This document shows, in pieces, positions 4,346 to 60,444 of a stretch of 64,000 nt of DNA. Numbering within the stretch: position 1 is the first letter of the stretch; every line of letters begins with the position of its first letter. The DNA lies in assembly GCA_021904315.1 (NCBI GenBank), contig CM038913.1, positions 7,749,958 to 7,813,957 on the forward strand, in the 5' to 3' direction. Origin of the DNA: Sphagnum magellanicum. Its lineage: Eukaryota; Streptophyta; Sphagnopsida; Sphagnales; Sphagnaceae. The notes beneath the pieces were generated by a model. It made no database searches. It had not been told where the DNA came from and worked only from the letters and a program-made list of their open reading frames with translations. The position numbers and the translations under genes are program-made.

Positions 4346-4421
4346 TGTTGGCCTCCTATTCTCATGTACACCTCTTTGGGGTTCTAAGGACAAATTCTAA
4401 CATTTTTGGGGTGTTCAAGTA

Positions 4422-4446
4422 CAGTAGCCTCCCGCCTAAGTACGCA
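4422..4446 (+). repeat. Left terminal inverted repeat of the Tigger-like element
   Basis: Starts CAGTAGCCTCCCGCC and matches the reverse complement of 7846-7870, with 20 identical bases in a row at positions 2-21. CAGTA is the usual type of start for pogo-group ends. Confidence 0.92.
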
Positions 4447-4465
4447 ACTTGAACCTGGGAGGAAC

Positions 4466-4496
4466 GTGCGTACTTAGCTGGTAGGTGCGCACTTAG
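4466..4496 (+). repeat. Two subterminal repeats of the TIR core
   Basis: GTGCGTACTTAG (4466-4477) and GTGCGCACTTAG (4485-4496) repeat the inner TIR sequence GCGTACTTAGG, inverted relative to the left TIR copy. Similar copies occur at the right end (7830-7839 and 7845-7856). They are plausible additional transposase-binding sites. Confidence 0.75.
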
Positions 4497-4499
4497 ACC

Positions 4500-6049
4500 A
4501 ACAAATCCTCCATTTGGGTATCGAACTCCAAGTTCTTTCAGGAGTTGGGAGCATCGGCACAGACAGAAAAAACAACACTCCCGTTGTTGAAAGAGTCACA
4601 GAAGAAACTTTAGGGTTCCTGGTTAATTGAAAGAGTTGGTTGATGAGTCGTAGGATGAGTGAAAAAACAGACCAAGAGTGGGGTGCCTGTTGTTGTTCTT
4701 CTCTCTCTTGCTCCTCTTCCCTCCTCTGTTGACTTCCTCTCTTTGCTCCTCTTCCCTCTTCTGTTGCCTTCCTCTCTTAGCACACGCATGTGAAGGAAGA
4801 AACACAAGGAACTGCCGCGCGAAAAGCACATCTGCCGACGATCTTCCACAAACCCTGGTAAGCAAAAAATCTCAACTTTCTGCTCGGCTACACCCGGCAA
4901 ACAGACGTCTGCTGCCACTGTAGCTCCCCTTTCCGCCATGTCCCGGAACTGCGGCGTTCCTTTTAGCACTCTGCCTTGGTTTGCAGTGCAATTCTTTGCA
5001 CACTGAAACTACCATTATTGTTTGTAGCCCATTTATGTCCTACCCCCCACAGAAGGTTTACTCAAGAGGCTCCTTCAATCTTTGTTTCCGTCTGCCTGTA
5101 ATCTTTGCAGCCCATGCCTTCCCCAAGTTGGTTTGAAACTTTCCTGCACATAAGAAGCAAAGACAAGGTATGGCTCAAAATTGAGCTGCTTCCACTTGCT
5201 AACTGATTTTCAAACACTGAACTTGAAGAGGTGAATTGCAACTGGTTGCAGGCTAGTACACTTCACATGTATTCTTTTCATTTCAAATGCTCACAAATTA
5301 AGCAATTTATATTTGCCAAATCATTGACTCTGTTCAATTGTATTGCAAAGGTTCTGTTCAATGAAGAACTTGAAAAAGATAGTGACTCCACTTACCCTTA
5401 GTGGAATTAAAGAAATTTTCAAGATCCTTTCCTTGTTCTACCAACAAATCCAATAATCACTCACTTTGTCTTGACTTACATATGCTTATCATGAAGCAGC
5501 TCCTGGATCAGAAACATCAAAGATAAAATTTGATGTTTTGGCATCTTGACCAAATGTCCTTCAGGTGCCTGTCATTGCTTATATTGTTTGTTGTCTCTCT
5601 TTGATGTCTCTTATGCTTAAGTAGCTGATAATATATTGAAAATAGCTTGTTCTTAACCTTTCAATCCAATTATTGCCTGTTCGGAACTTTTGTGGTTTAT
5701 ACAAGCATGCTTGACACACCAACAATGGCGAGAAATTTTAATCAAAATTGAAGAGGCATTTCCATTGACCCCTCCTTGTACTTGGGCTCAAGTTCAGTCC
5801 AAAGTACACAAGATGCAAATTTTTTTAATGAGTTGAAGAAGGAGCATGGAGAATCTGGTGTAGGTCAATGGGTTTAGGGTTTAGGGCCATGGTTTTAGAG
5901 GTGTTTAATGATTTGGGGCAAGACTGCCAAGGTTTGCAGCACTGCTAGAGGAATGGACAACGGTGTTCCAACTGATTCAGAGGGTGGATTTGTGCAGGAG
6001 CTTGTGAACTTGGAAGATACTGAAGAACACGGTCCTTCTCCTTTTCCAG
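4500..6049 (+). other. Long 5' leader of the Tigger-like element, with a gene-like UTR and possible intron
   Basis: Contains a pyrimidine-rich tract at 4687-4785 (CTCTTCCCTCCTCTG-type repeats), a donor-like CTG|GTAAGC at 4857/4858 and an acceptor-like TCCTTTTCCAG ending at 6049, 43 bases before the presumed transposase ATG at 6093. An open frame at 5908-6150 crosses the acceptor in a different frame from the transposase and is probably not a separate gene. Splicing is inferred from sequence only. Confidence 0.4.
5870..5886 (+). repeat. Short TTTAGGG telomere-type motif
   Basis: GGGTTTAGGGTTTAGGG, about 2.4 copies of the plant telomere repeat, lies inside the transposon leader. Short copies of this kind also act as telo-box motifs in plant promoters and 5' regions. 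Confidence 0.7.
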
Positions 6050-6092
6050 ACAGACAAGTTCCTCCATTTGCAAGCAACTTGATTCAGCTGCA

Positions 6093-7796
6093 ATGTCAAA
6101 GAAACCAAACAGGAAACGCCTCAATGAGTCCTAGCGATGTGAGATCATAGTGAAGCTGAGCAAGACGGATGCTCCCAATAAAAGGGCTATAGCGCGTGAG
6201 TATGATGTTACTGAAGGAGCTATCAGAAAGGTGTGGGACAAGCGGGAGCAAATCCTAGAGTGATCTGCCTTAATGTCTGATGAAGCTAAAGAGAAGACTT
6301 TTCGATCCTCTGTTGGTCGTTTCACCAAGCTTGAAAACATGCTTTACATCTAGATTGACAACATGCGTCGTGCTAATCTTCCTATTCCGCCATCTCTTGC
6401 CATCGCCAAAGCGAAAAGTATTGCATCGAGTTTATCGATTCCGGAAACGAACTTCAAGGCATCCTGGCAATGGCTAAGTCGATTTAGAGTGCGCCGAGGG
6501 TTACAAAAGATGCTGCTTCACGGAGAGGGAGCTGAAGTCAATAAATCTGATCTTGGATTGATGGTAGCTTTAGATGACCTCTACGCGATTATTGCCCAAT
6601 ATGATCCTAAAAACGTCTATAATATGGACGAGACCGGCCTATTTTTTCGCCTACTACCAAGATACAGTCTTCTAATGCCGGATGAGGACATATCAACCAC
6701 TAGAGGGAAGAAAAAATCCAAAGATCGGGTTTTTCTTATCATGTGCGCCAACGCTATGGGAACTCACAAAATTCCTTGCGCATTGATCGACAAACCGAAA
6801 ACACCTGCCTGTATCAAGGATCGCCAATGGCCTATTCCATATTTCATTCAAGCTAAAGCTTGGATGGACGTGGAAACGTGCTGGAAGTGGTTCAACGAAG
6901 TGTTTCTTCCAAAAGTGAAAAAACGAACCGGACGTCAGGTTCTTTTGCTGTTAGACAATGCCCCCAGACACTTTGAAGCTTTTGAACGCGACAATGTTAG
7001 GATCGTCTTCTTTCCCCCAAATTGCACAAGTTGGAAACAACCCTGCGATATGGGCATAATCGCAGCTCTGAAGAAGAGGTTCAAATATCTCTACCTCAAG
7101 GATGTTCTTGACTTCTATGAATTGGATGAGGAGGCGAAGCTTCAAAAGAAAATGCAGGGGCAGAGATTACGACGCGGTGCTGCTGGAGTCGCATACGGAA
7201 ATCCAACTCACCTGCTCGATGCTGCAAGTTATGTCAAAGAAGCTTGGCAATCCGTGTCACTAAGCTCTATCAAAAATGCATTTATCAAGGCGGAAATAAT
7301 GACATTAGAAGCCGATCAGGAAGCAGTGAATGAGATTGAAGATTTAGTGACCGAAGTTGCACAAGCTATCGTAGCTTTAAATCTTTCTGTTGGGCAAGAC
7401 GAGCTTGAAGAATTTGTTCATGTCGACGATGAAAATAGTGAAGAATTCACAATTGCAATTTTGGAAGACGTTGAAGAGCTTTTGCAGATGATGAAGATTG
7501 CCAAAGAGAATCTGGACGATGACAATGATGATGATATTCTTACCTCTCAAGCGTCAGGTTCGGGTTTAGGAAACACCATTGTATTTAAGGGATTCGAGTC
7601 ACTTTATAAGCAAGTTGTTGATATAGAGGATCAGTTGCTCTACTCTGAAGTTTGAGAAGAGGTTGAGGAAACATTCGATGATCTTAGAAAGTTGTTTGAA
7701 TCATTTCAAAGTAAGGTTCAGGCTATCACCTTGAAAGCCAAACGTAAGAATCTTCAAAACTTGCGCCAAATGACAATCCATGACATGTTGAACTAA
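6093..7796 (+). pseudogene. Pogo/Tigger-like DDE transposase, four in-frame stops
   Basis: The frame has 567 codons before a terminal TAA at 7794-7796. It is interrupted by TAG 6132-6134, TGA 6261-6263, TAG 6351-6353 and TGA 7653-7655, with no frameshift. Codons 10-57 form a basic helix-turn-helix (KRAIAREYDVTEGAIRKVW), followed by a CENP-B-type second DNA-binding region (IDNMRRANLPIP, FKASWQWLSRFRVRRGL). The catalytic triad is complete: D at codon 179 (NMDETG), 288 (LLLLDNAPRH) and 319 (QPCDMGI), with 30 residues between the last two. The C-terminus is acidic, and past the fourth stop ends RQMTIHDMLN. The longest uninterrupted part, 6363-7652, still covers the whole catalytic domain. Start chosen at 6093 because it is the first ATG in the frame that also reads through the HTH. 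No active product is expected from the full frame. Confidence 0.92.
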
Positions 7797-7845
7797 ATAA
7801 ATTTGAACCCTATTTTTTCGAGAAAATAATGCGTACTTAAATGGG

Positions 7846-7870
7846 TGCATACTTAGGCGGGAGGCTACTA
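7846..7870 (-). repeat. Right terminal inverted repeat of the Tigger-like element
   Basis: Reverse complement begins TAGTAGCCTCCCGCC. It is flanked outside by TA (7871-7872). Two copies of the GTGCRTACTTA core lie just inside at 7830-7856. Confidence 0.92.
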
Positions 7871-7872
7871 TA

Positions 7873-8369
7873 TAGTATGTCAGGGGGAGTTTTTTGGTCA
7901 TTCATTCCCCCCAATTCAGGACTCCAATTATAAGGTAGAATGTGGTGGAGTTGACTGCTTGAGAAATAGTGTAAGGCAACTAACTGCATACCTACACAGA
8001 CATGTGATCTGCCACTGACAAACTAACTTACTTGCTTGCTTTGTGGGTTTGCATCAAATATTGGACAAAATAATGTCAGAAGTTCCAACATGTAGGTAAA
8101 TCACAAGCAACTCTTCCAACTTCCAAGTCTGGTGGACAGACAGTCTTGACTCCTCTGGAAGTTGTTGTTGTTCTGTCCTTGAAGCAGTTAACATTTTGTC
8201 ACTGTGGTTTGATCAGTTTGCCTGTTGGCCAGCAGTCAAGGATCAAAATTGGTGAGAATAAAAATCCGCTATTTTTTAATCAATTTCTTTATATATATAT
8301 AATTTTTTTTTAATTTTTTTTCTCAAATTTCTGAAATAACAGTAAGCCACAAGCATCCCAAGGAGTGAT
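7873..8369. other. Gene-free stretch right of the transposon
   Basis: No coding frame or element recognised. It is slightly more complex than the surrounding AT-rich DNA and ends in T-rich tracts around 8275-8330. Confidence 0.5.
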
Positions 8370-13452: not shown

Positions 13453-14418
13453 TGATGCACTCCCAACTCCTTAAAGGATTCAAATGTGAGCCCAAGTAGA
13501 AAAGCAGCGGAAGAAGGAGGAGTCGGGGCACGCTCCCTAGCTCACAACACTTTGAGGGGTAGAGGGGCGTGTTGAAGCTCTGGGATGGGACTAGGAAGAG
13601 TTGACAAGCTTCACTCACTCACACGGGCCTGCACACAACCCACACAAAGTGGTTAGTGCATAGTTGGAGCACCTTTGGTGCTAGGACGAGCCACGGGCAA
13701 CATGGACACACAAGGCCCGGACTTGGGGGAAGCCACCACCTTCCCCCTTATAGTATACTCTGCAGTTCTCCACAGAGGCTACATCCAAATGGCTTTTTTT
13801 CTTGGGACTCCCGAGTGGGAGTCCTGAAATTGCACCAAATGGGACTCTCGCGACTTTGGAGCCCCATAACTTTGCGATCAGACCTCGAATTGCAATGCAG
13901 TCTAAAGCAAAGTTGTAACTCTTGTCGAGAGCTTTCCAACGATATGTGACACACCCCCTGCAGCTAAGTAAATCGGGTCGATTCTTGACTTTTTGTGGTC
14001 GGGAGTCAAATTGGCAGATCGACTCCTGGCCCTTCTTTTGGCCATAACTTGTGTTTCAAATGTCCAAATGAGCAATGCGAGCCCATTTTAGACATCTACG
14101 CTCCAAGAGCTTTCCAATGATATAAAGAACGCCACAAGACATTGAGGTTTGACCCTTGGAATCACTCTCTGAAGTTTCGGGAGTCCACCGGGACTCCATC
14201 TCCCAAAGTGGGAGTTGCCTTGGGAGTGTGAGTGTTCACTCCCTCACACTCCCTCACACTTCTTACACTCCCAGGAGTATGTGATGTGACTCCCCAGCTT
14301 CTTCTTGGCCCGCACCCTTGCAATGCCTTTGCCTTGACTCTCGGGCTTCCTTTCTTTTGGCCCATAACTTTGCAACCCCCTTTGCCTTGGTCGTGAGCCC
14401 AAAGCTAGGGTTGTGACA
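13453..14418 (-). mobile_element. Solo LTR, family shared with 59567-60444
   Basis: A 966-bp LTR on the minus strand. It starts (in its own direction) TGTCACAACCCTAGC at 14418 and ends GCATCA at 13453. It is flanked by the 5-bp target duplication AACAT (13448-13452 and 14419-14423). A TATA-like ACTATAAGG on the minus strand around 13748-13757 is followed by GGAAGGTGGTGGCTTCCCCC, conserved in the second copy, which marks the likely U3/R promoter. The LTR is visibly more GC-rich than its surroundings. No internal retrotransposon sequence adjoins it, so it is a solo LTR left by LTR-LTR recombination. Confidence 0.88.
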
Positions 14419-15345: not shown

Positions 15346-16157
15346 TTTTATACTACGTAGATGTCATCATTTTTGCTACCTATTACATATAAGGCTTCTT
15401 TTGCACCCATCACAAGTAATTTGTAAAGCAAAAGAAGGTCAAAAAACATTATGCATGTCAAAAGAAATGTAGTGGAGAAAAAGGCCCATCACATGGAAAA
15501 GAAGAATAAAAAATAACTTGTAAAGAAATGTAACAAAAAACTACATTTGTCATTGGATAAAAGGCTAAAATGAAGTAACACTTACATTAGTAAGTTAATA
15601 CATCAACCTTCTCAAATGAAGCCTCCTAAAAATTAGAACCTCAATCAACTTGGGAAATCTTTGAATTGGACCTTAATTTACCATAATGCCTAGGCTCATA
15701 AAGCACAAATTAATTATTTTTTCGAATTGCCAAAAATATGAAAAAAAATGCATGATATGCCAAAAATTTGAGTGAAGCTCTTATGCACAATAGCTTCATG
15801 ATTTAGTATAATGCCTAATTTATTATTATTGAAAATCATCATTAAGAAAAAAAAATTAAGAATTAGGCACCTTGTTGTCAAATTGGCCAAGGTACTATGA
15901 TATTTTAATGGTCAAATATTTATAATGTTTAAAAGAAATCCAAGAAAAACACAAGGTTTTTTTTTTTTTATCATGGTATCATTATTGTAGGTGTTACTAG
16001 TTGGTTCACCCAAGGCCTAATTGAGGCTAAAAAGACATTTTTCTATTAAGTTATTAGTAAGTTGTGAATTAGGAAAAATCAACACTTTTTAATCTTCAAA
16101 CCCCAACCTTTAACCTTCTTTTCTTGCATAGGCTTTCTAAAGCTTTTGAACATTCAA
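15346..16157. other. Gene-free AT-rich stretch
   Basis: Nothing recognised before the retrotransposon LTR at 16158. Confidence 0.5.
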
Positions 16158-16780
16158 TGTTCTTAAAGGTCATAAAAGATTGTTAGGGTTTTTTGTAGAT
16201 GAATTTTGATTACCTAATTTTATTACCAAAAACTAATTACCAATTTTTCACTACTGAAATTGATTACCAAATTTATGTTATCAGATTTTTATTATTATTT
16301 ATAGCACCAAAAAAATAAATAAATGCAACTACTAGTTGGGATTTTCTAGATTGTTGATAAAATTGACTTCTATTAGTTTTAAAAAGATTTTAGAAAATCT
16401 ATTATTTTCAATAGAATCATCATTTTGGATTTAGATTTGCATCGTTTGTTCAATGTACTTAAAGGTTGGGTTTTTTGTAAGCTTAATAAAACTTGTGTAT
16501 TGTATTTTGATGTTGTAATTCAAATTCTTATTTCTTGAAGTTGTCTTTCCCATTGCAAATTTTAATTTTTGCATTTCAAAATTCGATTTGTTTTTTAAGC
16601 TCAATTGTTGTCATTTTCCCTACTAAGAATTGTTTGCAAACATTCGATAGTTTATTCGTACTACTGTTTTCAAATAATTTGTGACCATTTGTCATTTAAA
16701 ATTTGCAAAAATGTATTTTCACTTCTTGCCCCTATTGTTTTTATTTTCCAAACCTAGAATATTATTGGTTGGATTTAACA
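16158..16780 (+). repeat. 5' LTR of the gypsy element
   Basis: Begins TGTTCTTAAAGG and ends near GGATTTAACA. It aligns with 26128-26775 through blocks such as TTTTTTGTANATGA, GATTTTCTANATTGTTGATAAA and AATGTATTTTCACTTCTTGC. The exact start is uncertain by about 20 bases (TGTTAGGG at 16181 is the alternative). Confidence 0.8.
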
Positions 16781-26115: not shown

Positions 26116-26127
26116 TAGGAGGGATGA
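26116..26127 (+). promoter_or_regulatory. Polypurine tract before the 3' LTR
   Basis: AGGAGGGATGA-type purine run directly upstream of the LTR start, the expected site of plus-strand priming. Confidence 0.5.
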
Positions 26128-26775
26128 TGATGTTAAAGGTTAGAAAAGACTATTAGGATTTTTTGTACATGATTAACTTTGACTACTAGATTTTACCAAG
26201 TATTGATTTTAGTATTGAAAATTGATTATCATTTTTTCATTACCAAAATAGATTACTAAATTTATGTTAACAACCATTGTTATTTATTTTAAGCACCAAA
26301 ACTAAGTGCTTAAATGCAACTATGAAAAATTAAGATTTTCTAAATTGTTGATAAAATTAACTTCTACTTGTTTTAAAGAAATTTTAAGAAATTTATTGCT
26401 TTTAGTAGGATCACCATTTTGGACCTAAATTTGCACCATTTTGGACCTAGAGGTCATATTTTTGTAAGCCTGATAATTTCTTAAAAATACATTTAGATGT
26501 TTTTGTAATTCAACTTTTTTTTATTGTTAAAGTCGTTTTTTGTACTATAGATTTTTGTTATTGCATTTCAAAGTTGAATTTGTTCCATAATTTTAAATGT
26601 TGTCATTTTTCCTACTAATGATTATTACTTCGAATATTTGTAAGAGTTTGGTAGTCTATTTGTATTATTGTTTAAGAAAATTTGTGATTATTTTGTCATT
26701 TTAAAGTTGTAAAAATGTATTTTCACTTCTTGCTCCTATTTCTTTGATTTTCCAAACCCAAAATATTGTCGAGTG
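26128..26775 (+). repeat. 3' LTR of the gypsy element
   Basis: Begins TGATGTTAAAGG and aligns with 16158-16780 over its length. The last ~20 bases diverge, so the end is approximate. Confidence 0.75.
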
Positions 26776-59566: not shown

Positions 59567-60444
59567 TGTCGCAACTTTAGCCTTGGGCTTGCGATTAAGG
59601 TAAGGGCTTGCAAGAGTGAGGGACAAGAGGGAGGCCCAAGAGGCACATCTTATACTCTCGGGAGTGCAGGAAAGTGTGAGAAAATGAGCCCTCACACTCC
59701 CAAGTGAGCTCCCACTTGAGGAATTGGAGTCCCGATGGACTCTTGAATCTTCAAGGAGCAATTTTAGGGATCAAAACCCATTGGATTGAAGAGTTATTTA
59801 TATCATTAGAAATATATTGAAACTTAGATGTCTAAAATGGGCTTGCATGATTCATTTGGTTATGGCCAAAAGAAAGTCCGGGAATCAAATTGGCAGTTTG
59901 ATTCCTGACCACTAAAAGTCGGGAATCGACCTGATTTCCTTATGTGCAGGTGGCATGCGACATACCATTAGAAAGCTCTTAACGAGGGCTACAATTTTTC
60001 TTCAGACCTCTTTTCAATTGGAGGTCTTCACACAAAGTTATGGGGCCCCAAAATTGCGGGAGTCCCAACTTTGGGAATTTCGGGACTCCCAGGACAAAAT
60101 GCCATTTGGATGTGGGCCTCATGGAGAGGCACAAAGTATACATAAAGGGGAAGGTGGTGGCTTCCCCCAAGTCCGGGCCATGGTGAGTCTTGTGAGTCTA
60201 AGTTTGCTTGTGGTTTGTCCTGACACCAAGAGTGCTCCAACTATGCACTAACCAACTTGTTGTTTGGTTTTGTGTAGATTCGTGTGAGTGATTAATCACT
60301 TGTCATTCTTCCTAGTCCCATTTCGGAGCTCTAGCACGCCCTTCTACCCCCAAAGTGCTACGAGCCAGGGAATGTGCCCTAACTCCTTGCTCTTCCATTG
60401 TTTTCACTTCCTTTGAGTCTATCAAGGAGCTCAAGGGTGCGTCA
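59567..60444 (+). mobile_element. Solo LTR, same family as 13453-14418
   Basis: An 878-bp LTR starting TGTCGCAACTTTAGCC and ending GGTGCGTCA. The 5-bp target duplication is CTTTC (59562-59566 and 60445-60449). It aligns with the reverse complement of 13453-14418 along its whole length, including AAGTCCGGGCCATG/AAGTCCGGGCC and GTGCTCCAACTATGCACTAACC. A TATA-like TATACATAAAGGGG lies at 60137-60150. Differences from the first copy are many, so both insertions are old or belong to subfamilies. Confidence 0.9.

Follow-up and report, generated by a model that had tools for sequence, protein, structure and literature searches.

A stretch of 64,000 nucleotides of Sphagnum magellanicum (C7:7749958-7813957; hereafter the window) carries a dead pogo-type transposon that was very probably (roughly 90%) silenced by CG and CHG methylation and lost its reading frame mainly through deamination of 5-methylcytosine. 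An essentially intact copy would have inserted at a TA site and would then have been silenced with cytosine methylation at CG and CHG, weaker at CTH and CAA, after which the change of 5-methylcytosine to thymine on both strands would have been the main cause of the loss of the reading frame. From comparing the copies of the element we infer that methylation caused the decay and was in place early in the life of the insertion. The mechanism is known biology; the spectrum of changes is unusually clean, and this spectrum, its CHH detail and the captured DNA of the element are worth keeping.

The element and its parts are as follows.

4422 to 7870, plus strand: whole pogo-type element of 3449 bp, with TA at 4420-4421 and 7871-7872, from the search for terminal inverted repeats and the comparison of sister copies
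4422 to 4446, plus strand: left terminal inverted repeat, 25 bp, CAGTAGCCTCCCGCCTAAGTACGCA, from the inverted-repeat search and the ends of the copies
7846 to 7870, minus strand: right terminal inverted repeat, 25 bp, from the same two sources
6093 to 7796, plus strand: broken transposase ORF of 567 codons, with HTH_Tnp_Tc5 and DDE_1 and a DD30D motif

TA was present on both flanks of 30 of the 31 loci at which both ends were located (up to 4 mismatches; 36 loci examined), and the majority of loci had CAGTAG..CTACTG ends, with TAGT, CAAT or CTACTA at some. The last base of the right repeat is A in the window copy and G in most copies listed, at a position where the opposite-strand C stands in CAG, a CHG site. 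DDE_1 (PF03184) was found in the transposase with E=2.6e-32, the catalytic residues D179, D288 and D319 are present in both consensus proteins with 30 residues separating the latter two, and HTH_Tnp_Tc5 (PF03221) matched L011 at 41.4 bits and L030 at 37.0, for a cut-off of 22.2. By its TA duplications, CAGT ends, HTH_Tnp_Tc5, DDE_1 and DD30D the window element is classed as a DNA transposon of the pogo superfamily. The Tigger label given to its transposase in a preliminary description of this DNA is unproven: CENP-B_N, which occurs in some Tigger and pogoR transposases (PMC7386202), scored 20.5 bits in the window piece and 13.4 and 12.8 in two copies, all under the Pfam cut-off of 21.2, and Tigger is itself considered polyphyletic (PMC7325037). 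Two matches to solved structures (E.13 and.34) were regarded as chance, and a search of a collection of genome contigs for relatives of the element confirmed none. Ten other ORFs of the window, which has 28 of at least 95 aa, gave no Pfam match at E 0.05. Elsewhere in the window, a direct repeat pair (16157-16763 and 26127-26767, 71% identity) and an inverted repeat pair (13494-14335 and 59597-60409, 73%) are perhaps old mobile elements.

Searching the genome (438,994,042 bases in 31 contigs) for further copies gave 37 matches, taken as 36 loci. Fourteen of them, L009 (the window copy) to L022, form a near set whose other members are 87-96% identical to the window copy, and 13 form a far set (L028-L030 and L032-L041) at 70-72%. 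The ORF alignments omit nine partial or deleted loci (far L031, L042, L043 and L044, near L023-L027), and L023, L024, L025 and L027 were included in the analysis behind the five-copy consensus spectrum given below. L023-L027 are near copies with internal deletions (0.5-1.7 kb) that retain both ends. The tree of copies has two well-supported groups and is star-like elsewhere, with end branches of median 0.05 and support below 80 in 14 of 24 inner branches. The window copy and L010, its nearest relative, have a common 3' end (window 7839-7873) with ten positions unlike the other four copies of the six-copy long group to which they belong.

The preliminary description had reported four in-frame stops and no indels in 6093-7796, and both points were confirmed: translation placed stops at codons 14, 57, 87 and 521 ahead of the natural TAA at 7794-7796, and no indel was found against the 14-copy consensus. 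The precursor codons that it had predicted (CAG, CGA, TGG and CGA, in this order) are those given by the sister-copy consensus, and the CG and CHG contexts that it had assigned to the stops hold in the sister copies as well.

6132 to 6134, plus strand: codon 14, stop TAG from CAG, CHG context, from the consensus of near and far copies
6261 to 6263, plus strand: codon 57, stop TGA from CGA, CG context, from the 14 near copies
6351 to 6353, plus strand: codon 87, stop TAG from TGG, minus-strand CHG context, from the 14 near copies; within the HTH_Tnp_Tc5 stretch
7653 to 7655, plus strand: codon 521, stop TGA from CGA, CG context; common to L010, L013, L015 and L021

The third base of codon 14 is tied between G and A (7:7) in the near copies, and CAG is backed by the G kept in the window's TAG and by CAG in the far-copy consensus (13 copies). 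At codon 87 the precursor TGG is preceded by C, so that the opposite-strand C is a CHG site. Stops are a general feature of the family: each of the 27 aligned copies has between 1 and 9, and of the 126 in total 89 are explained by a single CG or CHG change, 16 by a CHH change, 13 by another single change and 8 by two changes.

The further claim that the copy had decayed almost only by deamination is well supported by the changes that separate its ORF region from a consensus of the five copies in its group, in which the window copy itself is counted: 42 of 45 are C-to-T and none is a transversion. Per site these are 14/166 at CG, 20/126 at CHG and 8/487 at CHH, with 3/969 transitions at A/T sites. 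Likewise, the 5' part of the element has 6/58 at CG, 12/140 at CHG, 10/501 at CHH and 2/885 at A/T sites, together with 8 transversions, and C-to-T accounts for 70 of the 83 changes in ORF and 5' part. Against a six-copy consensus, which adds the more distant L014, 44 of 55 changes in the ORF region are C-to-T and 20 of 55 are not CG or CHG transitions (9 CHH, 11 not C-to-T), the combined CG and CHG count of 35/308 differing from 9/497 at CHH with a Fisher P of 2e-8, where copy-by-site cells are assumed independent here as in all Fisher tests. Of the C-to-T changes in the ORF, 11 are synonymous, 28 are non-synonymous and 3 create stops, for opportunities of 244:476:49; the fourth stop is uncounted since T is tied at codon 521 in the six-copy consensus. 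The three classes thus about match opportunity, and the decay of the window ORF looks unconstrained.

The 5' part also holds host DNA. In the compact copies (near L015-L022 and the far copies with the left end found) about 110-170 bp separate the left end from the ATG. For the window copy and four of its sisters this distance is about 1.7 kb, which holds these pieces.

4496 to 4683, plus strand: captured host DNA, 90% identical to a stretch upstream of the Myb/SANT-like ORF in the C18 locus L045
4692 to 4975, plus strand: captured host DNA, 87-93% identical to L045, upstream of the same ORF
4974 to 5709, plus strand: second captured segment of about 735 bp, 94% identical to the C5 locus L047 and nested between the C18 pieces
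5709 to 6080, plus strand: captured C18 segment, 91% identical, part of the coding region of the Myb/SANT-like gene
5873 to 5886, plus strand: telomere-like filler (TTTAGGG)2, in place of which the L045 donor has a shorter, different stretch

The second piece contains a 35-nt tandem duplication at 4708-4777. L045 has an open ORF of 277 aa with a Myb_DNA-bind_4 domain, and, with 40 of 106 candidates scored, the last captured piece has matches at 28 or more loci that lie outside the transposon. L014 carries a different insert of 1.75 kb at the same place (L014 1735-3480) with matches on C14, C4, C15 and C19, where the C15 piece lies between C4 pieces, C4 and C15 lie between C14 pieces, and CCCTAAA repeats stand between two C19 pieces. 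Telomere-like repeats therefore occur in both of these independent captures, and the nested order of the pieces suggests template switching during repair. Moreover, five elements of about 1 kb (L058-L062), each with both ends present and TA on either side, contain 908 bp of the left part of L014 at 98.5-99.7% identity and retain, of L014's 3646 nt, these 908 and up to 90 more. Given this identity, members of the family have moved recently, and members younger than the window copy exist.

The likely C18 donor offers a partial control, which is small, post hoc and limited to the C18 pieces, with an assumed direction of change and an uncertain exact donor. CG and CHG transitions make up 14 of the 53 changes from the donor to the five-copy consensus and 92 of the 179 that followed insertion in the 5' region of the five copies. 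Per site, the donor comparison gives 9/58 at CG, 5/77 at CHG, 10/253 at CHH and 9/392 at A/T sites, and the post-insertion comparison 30/290, 62/698, 51/2497 and 11/4453; insertion was thus followed by a stronger CHG component and by hardly any other changes, but not by a higher CG rate. The C5 donor piece, kept out of this test, has 4/32 CG or CHG transitions and 13/32 transversions. These figures bear on the idea of a genome-wide hypermutability of CG and CHG sites, in which case the decay would say nothing special about silencing of the element. Such a general CG/CHG signature is reported from plant polymorphism data (PMC12994199), and the CG excess over CHH in the donor comparison agrees with it. 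However, the donor's CHG excess is weaker (5/24 against 62/143 of C-to-T changes, P.04), and changes other than C-to-T are far commoner there (29/53 against 36/179, P 3e-6), both being small, post hoc contrasts, and we consider this idea improbable.

Similarly unlikely, in our judgement, is that some or all of the stops were inherited from an already broken source that was mobilised by transposase from elsewhere. The stop at 7653 occurs in 5 of the 14 near copies and is tied 3:3 in the long group, so that this one may be inherited, and deleted derivatives of the family without a transposase gene did move. On the other hand, none of the five remaining members of the long group has a stop at codon 14, 57 or 87 (those at 14 and 57 recur in L021, that at 87 in L016 and L017), and the window copy and L010 have few ORF changes in common that are missing from the other four, 3' end aside. 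Further, 14 of 184 CG sites are mutated in at least five near copies, which is near the binomial expectation, so repeated independent mutations would suffice for the common stop at 7653. The preliminary description had also taken the window copy for a fairly recent insertion, and this part stands only weakly: its 3.1% divergence from the six-copy consensus (55/1794) agrees with it when set beside the 71-77% identity of the other window repeat pairs of at least 100 bp, but these pairs are perhaps not datable and the derivatives of L014 are younger.

Decay of a methylated element is also what the spectrum across copies points to. At columns with a majority of at least 70%, where the consensus state of hypermutable sites is possibly wrong, the 14 near copies have C-to-T changes at 326/2346 CG, 248/1620 CHG and 309/6748 CHH cells, with transitions at 57/13267 A/T cells; the 13 far copies have 266/2460, 224/1684, 208/5474 and 22/12382. 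CG and CHG thus decay about three times as fast per site as CHH in both sets. The copy alignment and context count that the preliminary description had proposed accordingly place CG and CHG above CHH in near, far and window copies alike, and the contrary outcomes that it had named (other consensus codons, or too many CHH changes or transversions) were not seen among the aligned copies. Among trinucleotides that share their second base, those ending in G decay more in six of six comparisons (in near copies CAG/CAH.161/.033, CTG/CTH.183/.080, CCG/CCH.106/.017). Changes fall on both strands, with C-to-T and G-to-A counts in near copies of 169 and 157 at CG, 128 and 120 at CHG and 127 and 182 at CHH.

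The changes are also close to independent between copies. The numbers of CG sites mutated in 0 to 7 near copies are 20, 43, 55, 33, 19, 6, 7 and 1, for binomial expectations of 16, 43, 53, 40, 21, 8, 2 and 0.5; those of CHG sites, which fit less well, are 14, 29, 27, 28, 25, 7, 5 and 1, for 9, 26, 37, 32, 19, 8, 3 and 1. Mutations were thus largely independent and mostly post-date the separation of the copies. Changes found in a single copy of the 14-copy set are nearly equal in rate (CG.017, CHG.015, CHH.018), a result that is contrary if taken alone and was put aside because it drops recurrent mutations at a site, which are mostly CG and CHG here. The CHH share did not differ significantly between copies (P.11 and.70). 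In the young derivative L062, 11 of 11 changes are C-to-T, whereas pooling the other five rows gives 5 of 13 (P.002, a contrast picked after seeing the data), and methylation may therefore differ among copies.

A plain transition bias without methylation, the contexts of the stops simply following from the codons that can become stops, draws on the modest weight that the four stops have by themselves, as CGA always yields a CG context and CAG always a CHG context: the consensus ORF offers 49 ways for a C-to-T change to create a stop (9 at CG, 8 at CHG and 32 at CHH), and four of four in CG or CHG have P=0.014 if only C-to-T is considered (17/49 eligible) and about 0.001 with all changes and a kappa of 4. 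It is nevertheless very hard to maintain, because all C-to-T changes, silent ones too, track context, CG and CHG exceeding CHH about 3-10 times and A/T-site transitions about 10-75 times depending on the copy set, and because the effect of a third-base G contradicts it; beyond the four stops, the full spectrum decisively settles the context dependence. Active mutation of repeats by RIP, which is known from fungi, or by a deaminase, in place of slow decay of methylated DNA, would produce C-to-T on both strands of repeated DNA but has next to nothing left in its favour, as the changes are distributed over copies near-independently and the CHG preference and near-absence at CAC and CAT are unlike RIP, which prefers CpA.

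Within the CHH class, near copies changed at 197/2474 CTH, 70/1257 CAA, 28/1691 CCH and 14/1326 CAC and CAT cells, and far copies at 137/2086, 38/877, 28/1459 and 5/1052. CAC and CAT hence barely decay (19/2378 cells over the 27 near and far copies). The 27-copy spectrum suggests that an assembly by itself can reveal past methylation, resolved by trinucleotide, and the inclusion of CTH and CAA but not CAC and CAT makes a sharp prediction for CHH methylation in peat moss.

A more comprehensive scenario, which we put forward tentatively and hold to be somewhat less probable than its failure, joins capture and decay. Host DNA would have been captured repeatedly at one spot just 5' of the transposase gene, by nested template switching in break repair that left telomere repeats as filler at joints inside the insert. 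The captured upstream region of the Myb/SANT-like gene, adjoining the transposase start, would be a candidate promoter; deleted derivatives with another capture would have spread very recently, and host methylation would erode the copies by site class and so leave a record of the moss CHH preference.

The pogo superfamily belongs to the IS630-Tc1-mariner transposons (PMC7386202, PMC7325037), and the element resembles its members in TA duplication, CAGT ends, the combination of HTH_Tnp_Tc5 with DDE_1, and DD30D; with 3449 bp it is inside the 1.2-5.2 kb range given in the accessible part of PMC7386202. DD30D also falls inside the DD29-42D given there for Lemi. In the available parts of two surveys, pogo elements of land plants are Lemi from 23 eudicots (PMC7386202) or are listed from dicots and Selaginella (PMC7325037). 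A probable moss pogo family would extend this range, as far as so limited a literature survey indicates. The family also provides a natural example of a pogo-type element that captures host DNA. Pack-TYPE elements enclose pieces of host genes in their terminal repeats and spread them by transposition, and Pack-Mariner is known from rice and maize (PMC8903248). The window copy likewise has host gene fragments (C18 Myb/SANT-like locus, 4496-6080) between its terminal repeats, but it differs from Pack-TYPE elements, which are non-autonomous and lack a transposase gene, in that its transposase ORF, though broken, is still full-length.

In its decay, the element shares the CpG and CHG transition signature of methylation-associated mutation in plants as described in the accessible portion of PMC12994199, and it differs in recording old decay across the copies of one element and in its CHH trinucleotide detail. 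A full-text literature search on DNA methylation and transposable elements of Sphagnum gave one paper, which deals with ribosomal DNA. In Physcomitrella, CHH methylation by DNMT3b prefers CWH, and the residual CWA methylation of the DNMT3b mutant has been compared to the CMT preference (PMC6453930, accessible sections). The high decay at CTH and CAA in the Sphagnum copies is similar to the favoured CWH of that moss, while the sparing of CAC and CAT here describes a preference narrower than CWH.
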